From the NCBI GenBank assembly GCA_905479265.1, contig CAJQLX010000049.1:1-37440 (forward strand): a stretch of 37,440 nucleotides of DNA. Direction: 5' to 3'. The notes beneath the pieces are model-generated. The model searched no databases. It saw only the letters and a program-made list of their open reading frames with translations, and was not told the origin of the DNA. Origin of the DNA: an uncultured Alphaproteobacteria bacterium (GTDB lineage Bacteria; Pseudomonadota; Alphaproteobacteria; UBA7985). Both the position numbers and the translations under genes were made by a program. Below are positions 3,468 to 10,186 of the stretch, piece by piece. The first letter of the stretch is position 1; each line of letters starts with the position of its first letter.

Positions 3468-4109
3468 ATGCGGGACGCGACCAAGCAGCGAGATATGACG
3501 GCGATCGCTTCTCTGAGCTTCGAAGCGGCATTCCGTGCCAGTCTTGATGACGCCGGCGGGGCTTTGGTCCGCAACGAGGCGGGAGCTGAAAATCTGTGCG
3601 TCGCGCAGATCGAGACACCGCTCGATACTATGGTTGCCATTGCTGACGACCACGCTTTGCATATGCTGGAGTTTTTCGACCGCAGCATTTTTGGTCGAGA
3701 AGTGGAAGTCATCACGCAGGCGACGGGGAAGAGCGTCGCCGTTGCCGAAAATCCAGTCATCCGCACAATTCGGAACGAGCTAGGGGCATTCTTTGCAGGG
3801 GCAAAGGGGACTTTTGAGACTCCTCTTGCGCTGCATGGGACCGACTTCGTCCAATCCGTATGGCGCGCACTGCTCCGGGTTCCACCGGGTGAGACCCGCA
3901 GCTATGGCGCGCTATCACACGATCTCAATAACCCACGCGCTGTCCGAGCTGTCGCCCAAGCCAATGGCGCAAATCGCTTGGCAATTGTTGTGCCCTGTCA
4001 TCGAATCATCGGCGCCGATGGTTCGCTGACGGGCTATGGTGGGGGGCTTTGGCGCAAGCGGTGGCTGTTGGATCACGAAATCCGCCATTTTGGCCACCGG
4101 TTGCTTTGA
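3468..4109 (+). CDS. ogt: Methylated-DNA-[protein]-cysteine S-methyltransferase (Ogt/Ada C-terminal type)
   Basis: Direct-reversal DNA repair: the protein moves the alkyl group from O6-alkylguanine (or O4-alkylthymine) irreversibly to its own cysteine. The active-site motif PCHRIIG is at about residues 176-182 (Cys177). It is preceded by the helix-turn-helix part (FVQSVWRALLRVPPGETRSYG) and the NPRAVRAVAQANGAN segment, and followed by GSLTGYGGGLWRKRWLLDHE, all typical of the family. I chose the ATG at 3468 because GAGGGG lies just upstream; an in-frame ATG at 3414 would add 18 residues without an SD. The resulting 213 residues fit Ogt-type proteins. There is no Ada N-terminal Zn/AraC domain. 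It is convergent with the next gene, with only 3 bases between. Confidence 0.9.
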   Translation: MRDATKQRDMTAIASLSFEAAFRASLDDAGGALVRNEAGAENLCVAQIETPLDTMVAIADDHALHMLEFFDRSIFGREVEVITQATGKSVAVAENPVIRTIRNELGAFFAGAKGTFETPLALHGTDFVQSVWRALLRVPPGETRSYGALSHDLNNPRAVRAVAQANGANRLAIVVPCHRIIGADGSLTGYGGGLWRKRWLLDHEIRHFGHRLL

Positions 4110-4901: not shown

Positions 4902-4938
4902 CAAAAATAAAGGGCGGCAACCCGAAGATTGCCGCCCT
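4902..4938 (-). terminator. Rho-independent terminator of the VWA/coiled-coil gene
   Basis: A perfect 10-bp stem (AGGGCGGCAA paired with TTGCCGCCCT) with an 8-base loop, followed on the minus strand by TTTATTTTTG. It starts about 35 bases after the stop codon of the minus-strand VWA gene. It also separates that gene from the TetR-like gene. Confidence 0.92.
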
Positions 4939-4973: not shown

Positions 4974-7900
4974 CTATTGTGCCGCGCAGAGCGCTTCGAG
5001 TTCCGCAGCGCTCGAACCACCGGTAATCAAGCGCGCGATGTAGGCTTCCTGATCGCTCAGTTGACCGCGCTGGTTGTCGATGAACACGTTATTCTCGCGA
5101 ACAACACGTTGCAGTCGAGCCAACTCCTCGGACATGTTCCGGCGGGACGTTTCACAACCTTCAAGGCTGATTAAGGCCTCTTCCAGCTGAGCCTTGATAA
5201 CAGCGTAAGACGGGTTTTGCCCTGCCAACGCTGCGGCCAAGCGATCGCGCTCGAGCGTTACCGCTTCCAGCCGGTTTGAGATCGTCTCGTAGGATGGGTC
5301 TTGGACGCTCAGTATTGCCAGCAGACGATCCCGCTCGGCGGTCAGATTTTCCACCTGCGATTTCAGGACAATGTAAGACGGGTCTTGACTGTCCAGAACG
5401 CCGATCAGTTGATCCCGCTCGCGGCTTACTTGCTCAAGCTGCATGACGACCTGATCGTAATCGGGATCCTGGCGATCCAGCAAAGCAACCAAGCGCGCAT
5501 TTTCCGCTTCAACCATCGCCAACCGGGAAACAACAAGGTCATAGGCTGGATCTTGGGCGGTCAGGGTGGCCCGCAGGGTATCGCGCTCTTCGACAATCAG
5601 GGAAAGCTCACGCTCAACCATGGTGACGTTGATGTCATTGTTGCCGGTCGACGAGGCAATGATGGCAATCAAGCTGTCGTGCTGTGCTTCGAGCTCGGCC
5701 ACACGGTCACGCAGAACGGCATAACTTGGGTTTTGCTCGCTGATCGTCGCCTGCAGCGCGTCGCGCTGTTCGGTCATCGTCTGCAGATCGGCAACCAGCG
5801 TATCGCGGGAAATCCGAAGCGAAGAATAATCGCCGATACAGGCTTTGGCTGCATCCCCGAGATCTTCAAACTTGGCGTCTGCGAAGGCCACCATTTCTTC
5901 ATCCGTGCTGCAGCTTTGCAGCAAGCTGAGGAAGGAGCCACGGGCTTCTTCGAGCTGTAAATGCAGGCGGCGGGTCCGGATGCGTTCGTCACCCAAAGCC
6001 ATGCGAGCCTCGTCCAAGGTGGTCCGCAGGGCGCGGAGGTCGAGGGTCAAATCTTGGATTTCGATATCTCGCTCTTCGACCACCATCGTCAGATTCTGGT
6101 TGGTTGCCGTCAAATCGCGGTTCGCGATGAGCAAGCCATCACGATCGTCTGTGACAGATGCCAATTCGATCATCAGCTCATCGATGATCCGTGAGCGTTC
6201 TTCGAGTTCCAATTCCAAGGCACGAACACGCGCTGACAGGTCTTCGTTTTCAACCTTGAGCGTATCGATTTCGACGTAGGCCGCATTCAGGCGGTCACGC
6301 AGATCAATCACCAAGGCATCCAGAGCATCACGCTCCTGCTCAACATCGGTGATGTGGATGTTCAGCGTGTTGATTTCCAAGTCAGAGCCGCCTTTGGACG
6401 CAACAGCTTCATCGCGTTCAATGGTCAGTGTTCTGCGCTCGCTGAGCCAATCGCTCTGCTGACCTTCCAACAAAATAACCTGCTGTTCGAGGCCTTCTTT
6501 GTCCTGGGCCAATTCGTCGGCCTGTGCCTGCAAAATCAAGACGTTGTTTTCGGCATCAGCGGTTGCGCGCTGTGCTTCTGAAAGTTGATCCATCAAGACG
6601 ATAAGGGCCTGGTCGCGCTCATCGATGATGATGGTCAACTGGTTCGCTTGCGTCTGCATTTGCTCAACGGTCTGTGCCAGCGTTTCAATCTGGGTTTCGT
6701 TGGCACCAGAAGACTCACCCAAAACCACGATCGATTCGCGTGCTTCTTCCAAGCTGCTGGTCAGGTCGGTGATGGTCATCTCGTTGCTGCTCAGGTCTTC
6801 ACGCAAGGCGAGGATGATGGTGTTCAAGCGGGCGATTTCGTCGTCTTTTCCGCCCACCGCGCTCAAGCTCTCACGGAGGCTTGCAATTTGCTCGTTCAGG
6901 CTAGCAATCACCGCGTTTTTGCGGGCCAGAAGACCGTTCAGGCTTTCGATGGTCCGGCGGAGTTGAGCGATTGTCGCGTCGCGGTTTTCGATGATCTGAT
7001 CCTTGCCGGCCAGTTCCGAAGACACGCGAGCAAACTCAGAGCGCAAGGTGCGTTCATTGGTTTCCAGCTCAGTGATCCGAGCCAGCAACTCTCCAATCCG
7101 GTCGTCTTTGCCTGCCGCATCATTCGCCTGACCTTGCAGGATCACGAGCGTGCGGTTGTTTTCGGCCAGCAGCGCCTCTAGGCGTGCAATCTCGGCCCGG
7201 AGCGTGTCGTTGTCCGTGCTCAGACCTTCAACCGCGCCCGTCAGGCTTTCGATTTGCAGGACCAGCTGTGCATTCTCGCTGCTCAAGCCTTGGTTCTCAG
7301 CGCTCATTTCATCAATCATGCGCTGCAAGCGGCTGTTGGTTGAGTTGGCTTCGGCCAATTCGGTGCCCAAGGATTCGACCAAAACGCTCAACCGGGCGAT
7401 TTCGGCCTTGAGTGCGGCGATTTCATCGCTGTCGCGCTGGTTCGCCAACGCCGCGTTCAGACGATCCTGCAGTTGACCGATCAAGTCGTTCAAGCGGTCG
7501 ATTTCAGCTTGCTTCGCTGCGCTTTCTGCCGTGAGCGATGTCTTGTCTTGCTCCAAGAGCAAAATAGCCGCTTCGAGGCCGGTGATCCGCTGCTGCTTCT
7601 CGTTATTCGAGGACCGAAGGCGTGCGATCTCAGCCTGCAGAGCGTCAAGCTCTTCTGTCCGATCTGCGTCTGCGAGGCGTTGGGTCAGAATGATGATTTG
7701 GTTTTCAAGGTCAGCCTGCACCTGCTGCTGATCGGCGAGCAGGGTTTGCATCGCCATCAGGTCATCGTTCAACCGGGCATTGGCTGTACGCAAACGCGAT
7801 AGGCGGAAAAGGAAATCAGTGTAACGCGGCAGCTCTGCGGCGCTCTCCGTCTGGATCAGGAAGCCGCCGGTCTCATCGCTCAAGCACTGGATCTGCTCAA

Positions 7901-8441
7901 TCGATTCCTCCTGCAGGGCGATACCCAGCAAGAACACGGGAATACCGCGGTTCTTGAGCGTTGGAACGAGGTCACAGACATTCACGCCGCAATTGTCTTC
8001 CCCATCAGAGACCACCACGATCGCGCCTTGGGAGTCGGATGGGATCTGGTTCGCAGCCAGAGCGACCGAATCGCGCAGCGGGGTCTTGGCGCGATTGACC
8101 GGGGCCAGTGTGCTGACGTACCCGCGCAGACTATCCAAAGAAGCGCCCGGCTTGGCGAACAGTTCAATATCAGAACAATCGTTTTCGCTGCGGTGACCGA
8201 AAGCGACCAAGCCCGTGTTGGACTGTGCGGTTACATCCGGAAGCACGTCGACCAGCATCGACTGCGCAATCTCGTAACGGCGCTCACTTCCGAGGAGTTT
8301 TAGCATCGACCCTGACATATCCACGACGATCATGGTGGTGGTGTCGGCGCTGTCTTGCGCGCTGGCGGGGATAGCTGAAGCGCCGAAGGTCAACGCGGTT
8401 AGAGCGCCGAGGGTTCGCGCAATCACGGTAGAAAGTTTCAT
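4974..8441 (-). CDS. Secreted von Willebrand factor A domain protein with very long coiled coil
   Basis: A 1155-residue protein. A signal peptide (residues 1-29, ending ASAIPASAQ) is followed by a VWA domain (about 36-215). Its MIDAS metal site is visible: DMSGS (residues 41-45), a Thr in AKTPLRDS, and the Asp of VVSDGED. Such domains bind protein ligands through a divalent cation. From about 225 to near the end the sequence is almost continuous heptad coiled coil, rich in Glu, Leu, Ala and Arg. One break at about 840-875 carries two cysteines (LLQSCSTDEE, AAKACIGDY). Residues 903-1102 hold 28-residue repeats beginning Q-D/N-P-x-Y. It should be a periplasmic or surface rod with a VWA head. 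The ATG at 8441 is chosen for the signal peptide and the AAAGG upstream; the frame stays open to 8627. It is single-gene with its own candidate promoter and terminator. The partner is unknown. Confidence 0.88.
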   Translation of the reverse strand: MKLSTVIARTLGALTALTFGASAIPASAQDSADTTTMIVVDMSGSMLKLLGSERRYEIAQSMLVDVLPDVTAQSNTGLVAFGHRSENDCSDIELFAKPGASLDSLRGYVSTLAPVNRAKTPLRDSVALAANQIPSDSQGAIVVVSDGEDNCGVNVCDLVPTLKNRGIPVFLLGIALQEESIEQIQCLSDETGGFLIQTESAAELPRYTDFLFRLSRLRTANARLNDDLMAMQTLLADQQQVQADLENQIIILTQRLADADRTEELDALQAEIARLRSSNNEKQQRITGLEAAILLLEQDKTSLTAESAAKQAEIDRLNDLIGQLQDRLNAALANQRDSDEIAALKAEIARLSVLVESLGTELAEANSTNSRLQRMIDEMSAENQGLSSENAQLVLQIESLTGAVEGLSTDNDTLRAEIARLEALLAENNRTLVILQGQANDAAGKDDRIGELLARITELETNERTLRSEFARVSSELAGKDQIIENRDATIAQLRRTIESLNGLLARKNAVIASLNEQIASLRESLSAVGGKDDEIARLNTIILALREDLSSNEMTITDLTSSLEEARESIVVLGESSGANETQIETLAQTVEQMQTQANQLTIIIDERDQALIVLMDQLSEAQRATADAENNVLILQAQADELAQDKEGLEQQVILLEGQQSDWLSERRTLTIERDEAVASKGGSDLEINTLNIHITDVEQERDALDALVIDLRDRLNAAYVEIDTLKVENEDLSARVRALELELEERSRIIDELMIELASVTDDRDGLLIANRDLTATNQNLTMVVEERDIEIQDLTLDLRALRTTLDEARMALGDERIRTRRLHLQLEEARGSFLSLLQSCSTDEEMVAFADAKFEDLGDAAKACIGDYSSLRISRDTLVADLQTMTEQRDALQATISEQNPSYAVLRDRVAELEAQHDSLIAIIASSTGNNDINVTMVERELSLIVEERDTLRATLTAQDPAYDLVVSRLAMVEAENARLVALLDRQDPDYDQVVMQLEQVSRERDQLIGVLDSQDPSYIVLKSQVENLTAERDRLLAILSVQDPSYETISNRLEAVTLERDRLAAALAGQNPSYAVIKAQLEEALISLEGCETSRRNMSEELARLQRVVRENNVFIDNQRGQLSDQEAYIARLITGGSSAAELEALCAAQ
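5136..5735 (-). repeat. 84-bp (28-residue) coding tandem repeats in the VWA rod
   Basis: Units start at minus-strand positions 5735, 5555, 5471, 5387, 5303 and 5219, an exact 84-base period for the last five. A 96-base block without the motif (5651-5556) separates the first from the rest. Each unit opens with Q-D/N-P-(S/A/D)-Y and then continues as four heptads, often with (E/A)ERDRL. Third-position changes between units show the array is old rather than a recent slippage product. Confidence 0.9.
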
Positions 8442-8528: not shown

Positions 8529-8558
8529 TTTATAGTCTTGGCTCTTACAGATGACCAA
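8529..8558 (-). promoter_or_regulatory. Candidate promoter of the VWA gene
   Basis: On the minus strand, TTGGTC (8558-8553), an 18-base spacer, then TATAAA (8534-8529). A start near 8522 would give a leader of about 80 bases before the ATG at 8441. The match is good by eye but untested. Confidence 0.45.
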
Positions 8559-8717
8559 AGAAACGGCAACGATTTGACGGCATTCCCCAGCTTTTAGCAG
8601 CCCGCGACGCAAATTTGAGACAATCATGTCACGATATTTCGAATTTTACGGACCTACTTTGTAGGCGAAAATCTCTGACAAAGCGGATGAGCTGTGGGAT
8701 TCGGTTGTATTGAGGCC

Positions 8718-8794: not shown

Positions 8795-10186
8795 TTAGAA
8801 TTGGTCGCGTAACTTAGCGCATGCTACGTTCTGATCGAAGAAGTCCGCATTGATTCGCTCTGCGGGTTTGGCCGAGATTGAGCGCAGGGTGTTGGTCTGC
8901 ATATCCAGCAAAAACACGCCAGCCTCGCCGCGCATCGACGGTATTTGAACCGCCGCCTGTCCGTGTGTTCCAATGTCGCAAAAGATCGCGCCGGCGAGGT
9001 CCATCGACCCCATGACATGATTTGTATGCTCGGTCAGCTCAAAGCGTGCAATCTCGTCCAGCTTGCTGCCGTTCCACTGGTGAATGCGCAGAGTGGGACG
9101 AATATGCGGGGTCTCGATCACGGCGATTTCCCGGCTGCCATCGCCATCCAAATCAACCGCGCCATCGAGGGGGTTCAGCCAGCGCTGTCCCACGCCAATA
9201 AATTCAGACTGCGCCATGGGGAAGACAGATGCAGACTCCCCGTCCGTCCCTTTGTCGAACGCATACAAAGCCACAGATGCGCCCAGCTCGCGGTGGGTGA
9301 CAATGACGATGACTTCCTTGCGCCCATCATCATCCAAGTCTGTGACCCGCACCCGACGGTCTTCAAAAACCATCTCATAGGGCAAATTGTAGGGGTGAAG
9401 CGCCGAGCCTCGGGCATCGATGGTCATCAGGGTGCCGTACTCAAACGACTGCCCGAAAACGCCGTGCTGATAGCGCTTTGTCGGGTTCGCCAAGCAAACC
9501 CCGGTCAGATCCTCACAGGGCCCCAGCTTGACCGTATTCACCACGGCTTGAGCATTTGCCTCTGCCGGTGAAAGCGCCATGAGGGTCGCAAAGATGAACA
9601 TGATGGCAGCAACAATGCTGTCGAGGATCCGTGCGCCGCGCACGGTTGAAAGCGCGGGTGCCATTTGCTTGGCGCCATAGGCAATCGAGAAAAACCATAC
9701 AAATGAAGCCGTCATCGCGCCCACCGCAAACCACCAACGCTGGTCCCCAAACTGCGCCCCGGTCGACCCAAGCTTCACGACGGTGTCGAAGTAGACGTGC
9801 GGGTTGAGCAGCGAAAAGCCCAGTGTCGTGGTCACAGCGCGCATCGCGGTCGCAGGGGCGTCACTGCCGCTGGTCAACCAGCTGTCTTCAGGCTTCTGAA
9901 ACACACGACGCAAGCTCACCAGCCCGTACCATGTCAAAAACCCAACCGCCAACCACTTGGCGATAAACGCGATGACGGGAAACTGTTCAATGACAAGAAA
10001 CAGCCCGCCAATACCCAAGAAGATCAGGACGGTGTCGCAAATGGCAGCGGTCAGTGCTGTTGGCAGCACTTGGCCCCCGCGCAATCCTTGGCGAATGACA
10101 AACACGTTTTGAGCGCCAATGGCCACGATCAGACCGAAGCCGAGCACAAGCCCAGCGAGGAGGGGGGGTAAACTGAGAAGATTCAT
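8795..10186 (-). CDS. LysE/ArgO-type amino acid exporter fused to an FG-GAP/VCBS-like domain
   Basis: A 463-residue two-part protein. Residues 1-205 are a LysE/ArgO-type exporter: LGFGLIVAIGAQNVFVIRQG, CDTVLIFLGIGG, and LGFSLLNPHVYFDT, with about six membrane segments. Relatives export basic or other amino acids. Normally the protein ends after the last segment (ARILDSIVAAIMF), but here the frame continues through SPAEANAQA, which looks like a signal-peptidase site. A ~250-residue soluble domain follows with two FG-GAP-like calcium loops, DLDDDGRKE (about 283-291) and DLDGDGSRE (about 345-353). FG-GAP domains are usually extracytoplasmic beta-propeller blades. There is no SD before the internal ATG at 9601, so one polypeptide is favoured. 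It is the last gene of the operon, 12 bases after the Tag-like gene and without a clear SD, suggesting translational coupling. Confidence 0.82.
   Translation of the reverse strand: MNLLSLPPLLAGLVLGFGLIVAIGAQNVFVIRQGLRGGQVLPTALTAAICDTVLIFLGIGGLFLVIEQFPVIAFIAKWLAVGFLTWYGLVSLRRVFQKPEDSWLTSGSDAPATAMRAVTTTLGFSLLNPHVYFDTVVKLGSTGAQFGDQRWWFAVGAMTASFVWFFSIAYGAKQMAPALSTVRGARILDSIVAAIMFIFATLMALSPAEANAQAVVNTVKLGPCEDLTGVCLANPTKRYQHGVFGQSFEYGTLMTIDARGSALHPYNLPYEMVFEDRRVRVTDLDDDGRKEVIVIVTHRELGASVALYAFDKGTDGESASVFPMAQSEFIGVGQRWLNPLDGAVDLDGDGSREIAVIETPHIRPTLRIHQWNGSKLDEIARFELTEHTNHVMGSMDLAGAIFCDIGTHGQAAVQIPSMRGEAGVFLLDMQTNTLRSISAKPAERINADFFDQNVACAKLRDQF

Follow-up and report, generated by a model that had tools for sequence, protein, structure and literature searches.

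In the window analyzed here, i.e., an entire 37.4-kb contig from a draft genome of 2.9 Mb, one gene encodes a VWA head followed by a near-continuous heptad coil, and the coil has kept its length among close orthologs and differs by a single large block from a more distant one. We put a probability of roughly 0.5 on the reading that the protein is an exported molecular spacer, a metal-dependent head on a parallel-dimer rod, that serves as a spacer or tether in the cell envelope. Its architecture, its register, the conservation of its length and the single length change are directly supported by the analyses below. The parts are of known kinds; new, to us and with respect to the libraries searched, are their combination, its restriction to one order in the samples searched and a one-step, modular change in length.

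Gene, flanking signals and VWA head

Encoded on the minus strand, the gene comprises 1155 codons from an ATG at 8441 to the stop codon at 4974-4976 (Table 1). A previous reading of the sequence alone (hereafter the sequence-only reading) had given the correct coordinates for the gene and no strand; its description of the protein holds, and for register and length the case is stronger than it had put it. An alternative, longer frame begins at 8627; ATG 8441 was taken as the start because it is preceded by AAAGG and because the signal peptide opens there. The proposal that the gene forms a transcription unit of its own is in line with a terminator stem followed by a T tail, although sharing of this terminator by the orthologs is not obvious. 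A sigma-70 scan upstream of the gene found no promoter. In an alignment, a 24-nt block (8570-8547) that is nearly identical among three species contains TTGGTC, a plausible candidate for a -35 element, which is followed after 18 nt by TATAAA at 8534-8529 on the same strand. The block is present in one copy per genome and in none in a backwards control.

Table 1 Features of the rod gene and its surroundings (positions in the window).
Feature	Position	Strand	Basis
VWA-headed coiled-coil rod gene	4974..8441	minus	1155 aa; translation and orthologs L008, L009, L076, L077
Putative Sec-type signal peptide, residues 1-28 (...IPASA-QD)	8358..8441	minus	sequence and hydropathy; inferred
VWA domain, ~residues 29-215	7797..8357	minus	Pfam PF13519 above cut-off; 53-sequence alignment
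First coil, residues 215-843	5913..7799	minus	heptad analyses and AlphaFold helices; ~93 nm at full extension
Two-cysteine element C844-C868, residues 844-868	5838..5912	minus	invariant in four orthologs
Array of Q-[D/N]-P-x-Y units	5136..5735	minus	motif spacing; Pro at heptad f; 172 residues missing in G001 ortholog
C-terminal cap, residues 1096-1155, with C1096 and C1152	4977..5156	minus	highly conserved
Intrinsic terminator	4911..4938	minus	12-bp stem (4938-4911) and T tail
Conserved upstream element GTTGCCGTTTCYTTGGTCATCTGT	8547..8570	minus	24-nt block, three-species alignment

Residues 1-28 (MKLSTVIARTLGALTALTFGASAIPASA-QD) look like a Sec signal peptide, and in this respect as well as with regard to an intact MIDAS in the VWA domain our results agree with the sequence-only reading. 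The protein contains no lipobox, its first cysteine being residue 89. A hydropathy scan yielded no 19-residue mean above 1.3 after residue 30 and no second hydrophobic segment (maximum 1.18 beyond residue 215), and neither an autotransporter barrel nor a cell-wall anchor, SLH or other anchor domain was recognized by Pfam and hydropathy. The head matches Pfam VWA_2 (PF13519) with 30.8 bits (cut-off 27), and its MIDAS consists of D41-S43-S45, T120 and D146. Across the 53 aligned VWA sequences D41, S43, S45 and D146 are invariant, together with four cysteines (89, 151, 156 and 186) that fit an exported, disulfide-bonded domain. When checked for the Rossmann-like fold of VWA domains, the head was modeled by AlphaFold as alternating strands and helices, at low confidence (pLDDT ~40, three sequences in the alignment). 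Judged by sequence comparison, the head is a member of a proteobacterial secreted family.

A long, near-continuous heptad coil

The hydrophobic period of residues 215-1140 is exactly 3.5 residues, and the power at this period reaches 17 for residues 215-840 and 17.5 for residues 870-1130, with a chance expectation of about 1. When fitted to four orthologs, a heptad model scored 523 compared with 70 +/- 13.5 for identically refitted shuffles, i.e., 33 standard deviations above them, and the roughly 900 residues of near-continuous coil proposed earlier are thereby confirmed. Over 926 residues the register shifts just nine times, and never within 537-846 or 953-1140; towards the C-terminal end, the register breaks at 847-854, within the cysteine element, and at 934-949. 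Between close orthologs, positions a and d are 81-89% identical and positions b, c and f 48-58%. In full-length AlphaFold models (three sequences, mean pLDDT 55), helix is likewise predicted almost throughout, including nearly all of the C-terminal ~900 residues; gaps are found at 661-699, at 842-846 and at the repeat motifs. Note that residues 661-699 are non-helical in the model, yet the heptad model holds its register there. Fully extended, the first coil would measure ~93 nm and the second 40 nm. Leu (27%), Ile (25%) and Asn (8%) are frequent at position a, and Leu makes up 55% of position d. Composition rules for a and d link such a pattern of Leu, Ile and Asn to parallel dimers, and judged by them the rod is probably a parallel dimer.

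It was stated previously that a helix of this length has to be exposed at the surface, run along the envelope or double back on itself. This is a fair statement, but the sequence does not pick among the three. A rod folded back at a C844-C868 hairpin, with residues 872-1140 running antiparallel to the first coil in a shorter, compact arm, appears improbable to us. The two cysteines, found at the place where the sequence-only reading had put a break (~840-875), are both invariant, the element is modeled as two short helices and, with pLDDT 74-82, as the most confident C-terminal part, and the loss of AlphaFold helix at 661-699 would also suit a fold. However, the heptad phase barely changes across the element (2.7-2.8), the composition of a and d suits a parallel dimer, and a 172-residue change in one arm without a change in the partner arm, as described below, is hard to fit to such a structure. 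By eye, a two-cysteine element common to the rod and its paralog L002 seemed likely; profile comparison gave it a probability of 1.5%, and we make no such claim.

The long unbroken register (537-846 and 953-1140) and the presence of several coil paralogs within one genome could also speak for a periplasmic filament former, whose rods would join laterally or end to end in the manner of intermediate filaments and be cross-linked by the VWA heads. We regard this as rather unlikely. The 28-residue charge period expected for myosin-type packing is absent from the main coil (216-840; power 0.1 at 28), and weak matches to coil families, such as that of paralog L005 to Rod_CreS, which is far under the cut-off, are generic.

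The Q-[D/N]-P-x-Y array

The coil is closed by six Q[DN]PxY motifs at residues 903, 963, 991, 1019, 1047 and 1075. The gaps between them are 60, 28, 28, 28 and 28 residues, with 60 corresponding to 2x28+4 and a loop predicted at 932-938 within this first gap, and the same spacing is found in two other species. The exact four-heptad repeats noticed before thus hold for the last four gaps. Beyond residue 205, the only prolines of the protein are the six of these motifs. All six place Gln at d, Asp or Asn at e, Pro at f and Tyr at a. The array therefore keeps the coil register, which is unbroken from 953 to 1140. AlphaFold predicts helices between the motifs (965-989, 995-1017, 1022-1044 and 1051-1074) and a break at every Q-D-P; with a mean pLDDT of 55 and 66, the models lend this weak support. 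Because of these breaks we interpret the array as a series of joints, in phase and probably flexible, one every 4.2 nm. The expectation that proline would kink or cap the helix at regular intervals holds in part: in the low-confidence models the helix is interrupted at every one of these motifs, but the coil is not thrown out of step, with proline pointing outward at f. The array is followed by a C-terminal cap with the motif RLQRVVRENN...DQExYIARLITG.

Conservation of length

Over all 1155 residues, not a single insertion or deletion separates the protein from its orthologs at 70 and 67% identity. Alignment with the G001 ortholog (45% identity) shows, after residue 34 and thus beyond a linker that follows the signal peptide, one gap of 172 residues (6x28+4). 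It corresponds to residues 879-1050, i.e., the array minus its last unit, and G001 retains a single unit, QDPTY. Neighboring genes on the same contigs served as controls. Pairs with 60-75% identity had 0.54 gaps per 100 aligned residues and pairs with 30-50% identity had 1.69, all three of the latter being the periplasmic M23 protein EnvC. At the control rate, one ortholog would be free of gaps with a Poisson probability of 0.002. For one gap or fewer in 950 residues, the probability lies between 0.05 and 2e-6 depending on the rate used, a spread that shows how rough the test is. Paralog L002 behaves similarly, with 904 residues in three species at 67-68% identity, no gap and eleven cysteines at the same positions, while the VWA-coil paralog groups L003/L017 and L071/L073 do have indels.

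Equivalent array units are 68-86% identical between species, whereas differing units within one protein mostly share 30-54%. The array is thus old and fixed; it predates the split of the three species and has not changed in length since. As close orthologs lack indels and G001 differs by one 172-residue gap, the array looks like an extension that a length-constrained rod underwent once and that has been fixed ever since. Read without an outgroup, its gain is simpler than a loss in G001. Coils generally resist indels, most of which shift the register. For this reason, and because orthologs are few and other VWA-coil groups do have indels, we consider a constraint on rod length likely, not proven. 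Selection on length is moreover deduced from few branches, with only four orthologs and relatives that are all draft genomes. Conserved length combined with sequence divergence is a published mark of coiled-coil spacers (PMC5082667), and depletion of indels has been read likewise for the synaptonemal complex (PMC8598163).

Relatives, distribution and gene loss

Searches covered six genomes in the genus, eleven in the order and samples of 385 genomes from the class and 398 from the phylum. The relatives are metagenome-assembled draft genomes, and we read their marine origin off their MED names. Matches to the query were found in 56 of the 385 class genomes and in 49 of the 398 phylum-sample genomes (class members included). 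Nearly all concerned the head, and in the class a few concerned the coil only. The C-terminal part alone, suggested earlier as a query, was searched with residues 840-1155 and found relatives within the genus only, none turning up elsewhere in the eleven order and 385 class genomes; two weak class matches were dismissed as generic coils in an OmpA/MotB-like protein. A search of 85,000 genomes returned no match with the single protein and three loci with the ortholog alignment, corresponding to G001, G003 and G002. Viral contigs yielded no match.

Six other VWA matches are encoded in the same genome. Five of these proteins (L002, L003, L004, L005 and L007) have tails that are rich in coil or coiled in part; the sixth, L006, has no coiled tail. 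VWA-coil proteins that end in a cysteine pair occur in families f2 and f3 of the order as well, so that by sequence coil tails on a VWA head appear in three families of one small uncultured marine order. Outside the order, about 50 loci were examined and none showed a heptad coil behind the VWA head; the tails there are mostly Pro-rich, and those of L099 and L101 consist of AEAEK-type charged repeats, not heptads. A tree of VWA heads is compatible with one as well as with several origins of the coil fusion (support 39/78).

The gene is preceded by genes for a nudix protein, a DUF924 protein and an FG-GAP-like protein and followed by a COQ9/TetR-like gene. The five further genomes of the genus keep these neighbors as far as their contigs extend. 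In G004 and G005, all that is left at the locus is a remnant of the C-terminal tail beside the end of the FG-GAP gene, and the cap remains recognizable in G005. We conclude from this that the rod gene was deleted in both; in G004, which is 94% complete, the query matches nothing else. Since these two congeners retain just remnants, the gene is not essential. This loss, together with one in-frame TAG in the G001 copy, a draft sequence with ambiguous bases, could indicate a lineage-specific gene that is neutral, decaying and of no importance to the cell. We find this hardly credible: codon position 3 is changed in 52-64% of codons and position 2 in 7-19%, and length, heptad core, cysteines and upstream element have been kept across species.

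Proposed function

According to the spacer reading, the chain would pass the inner membrane via Sec, and the VWA head with its four invariant cysteines would fold in an oxidizing compartment and offer a metal-dependent MIDAS binding site. Two chains would pair as a parallel two-stranded coiled coil of up to ~130 nm, and this rod would hold the head, of which each dimer probably has two, a constant distance away from the cysteine-bearing C-terminal cap. Selection would weigh on rod length more than on surface sequence. One lineage would have lengthened the rod once by tandem four-heptad modules with proline outward at f, which would add ~25 nm of probably more flexible rod with the register kept. 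Dimer, disulfides, binding, tethering and the direction of the length change are what we infer in this scheme.

We slightly favor a location in the envelope, i.e., in the periplasm and along it, over one at the cell surface. As no anchor was recognized, a periplasmic rod must lie along the envelope or fold. Alternatively, the protein may be a surface adhesin whose rod is exported past the outer membrane, with the cap attached to the surface and the head at least 100 nm out, where it would bind other cells, particles or matrix; to us this seems possible, if somewhat unlikely. VWA/MIDAS adhesins are common at surfaces, with Bd0875 as a precedent (PMC11003981), the extended rod is longer than a typical periplasm, and the genome contains a secretin gene. 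A surface location would, however, need a route across the outer membrane. Lipobox, autotransporter barrel and cell-wall anchor were not recognized, and the lone secretin, a single gene for which type II secretion and pilus are not told apart, could belong to either.

It is a more doubtful idea that the VWA-coil proteins form a new class of envelope rulers, in which one small marine order would have fused metal-dependent VWA heads, perhaps repeatedly, to rods that differ in length from each other but stay constant between species. Length would then be adjusted by whole four-heptad modules with proline at f, and each of the several paralogs would define a distance of its own, within the envelope or outside it.

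Few examples are available of bacterial coiled-coil spacers of seemingly constant length. Here, nature provides matched rods: three species have the array that is longer by 172 residues, one has a single unit and two are gene-less. The role of spacer length in the bacterial envelope therefore becomes testable. The array furthermore suggests a design rule, according to which Pro at f, Gln at d and Tyr at a are tolerated every four heptads with the register kept.

Comparison with known systems

No named family combining a VWA domain with such a coil emerged from Pfam, NCBIfam and PDB sequence searches, in agreement with the sequence-only reading, which could name none. The match to SMC/Rad50 (TIGR02168; 97.5 bits versus a cut-off of 567) is restricted to the coil, lacks the ATPase head and reflects a generic likeness. 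Pfam HALZ scored above its cut-off; the family being a homeobox leucine zipper, we read this as a chance coil match. The PDB sequence search returned VWA relatives only, with 4rck and 8s05 as the best, apart from a lone coil match that is meaningless. Foldseek found no significant match with either AlphaFold model.

With its MIDAS and four cysteines, the head resembles secreted proteobacterial VWA_2 proteins with the motif (A/Y)(F/Y)GHRxxxDCxDIE; unlike those examined outside the order, the rod protein carries a heptad coil behind the head. Bd0875 and Bd1483, MIDAS adhesins of Bdellovibrio, are also exported VWA proteins with a MIDAS motif (PMC11003981), and the former is active at the contact zone and depends on its MIDAS (PMC11003981). 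Both possess a lipobox and a small beta domain with no coil reported, whereas the rod protein has neither lipobox nor beta domain. McaA of Magnetospirillum is a periplasmic VWA protein whose MIDAS is needed for localization (PMC9512821). Like the rod protein, it comes from the Alphaproteobacteria and combines a signal peptide with a VWA domain with intact MIDAS, and by analogy it may serve as a precedent within the class for a periplasmic VWA protein that positions things through its MIDAS. It differs by a transmembrane segment and a cytoplasmic C-terminus; the rod protein has no transmembrane segment after the VWA domain. Omp-alpha of Thermotoga maritima is a coiled-coil periplasmic spacer of 50 nm (PMC5082667). 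It is an outer-membrane protein, while no membrane anchor was recognized in the rod protein, which bears a VWA head and could be ~2.5 times longer; both are exported coiled-coil rods that share the logic of a spacer.

Loss of the rod gene in congeners and conservation of its upstream element

In two of the other five genomes of the genus, G004 and G005, the gene for the rod protein (VWA head followed by a long coiled coil) is lost, as read from remnants of its C-terminal tail that persist at the syntenic place. A 24-nt element upstream of the gene occurs once per genome and is almost unchanged across three species, while the surrounding intergenic region has diverged.

Coordinates of the features discussed
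Feature	Position	Strand	Location
Rod protein	window 4977-8441	-	
24-nt element	window 8547-8570	-	upstream of rod gene
LysE-FG-GAP fusion	window 8795-10186	-	
Remnants of rod C-terminal tail	L029 ~3616-3765; L030 1296-1598		syntenic place in G004 and G005

The rod protein contains 88 arginine versus 20 lysine residues, and its net charge beyond residue 214 is approximately -85.

Also in the window, a secreted FG-GAP-like protein is joined to a LysE-type transporter as one fusion. In G001, G004 and G005, the FG-GAP protein is separate and has an apparent signal peptide of its own, the position of which is occupied by the last LysE helix in the window's genome and in G002. G003 agrees with the fusion, its sequence ending at a contig edge.

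Related VWA proteins

Six more VWA proteins (L002-L007) are encoded at scattered loci of the same genome, and in five of them the tail is rich in coil or coiled in part. Across three species, the 904-aa L002 shows no indel and identical cysteine positions. VWA heads of the rod protein's type are also present in proteins of a different family of the phylum, f189 (L099 and L101), in which AEAEK-type charged repeats replace the heptad coil.
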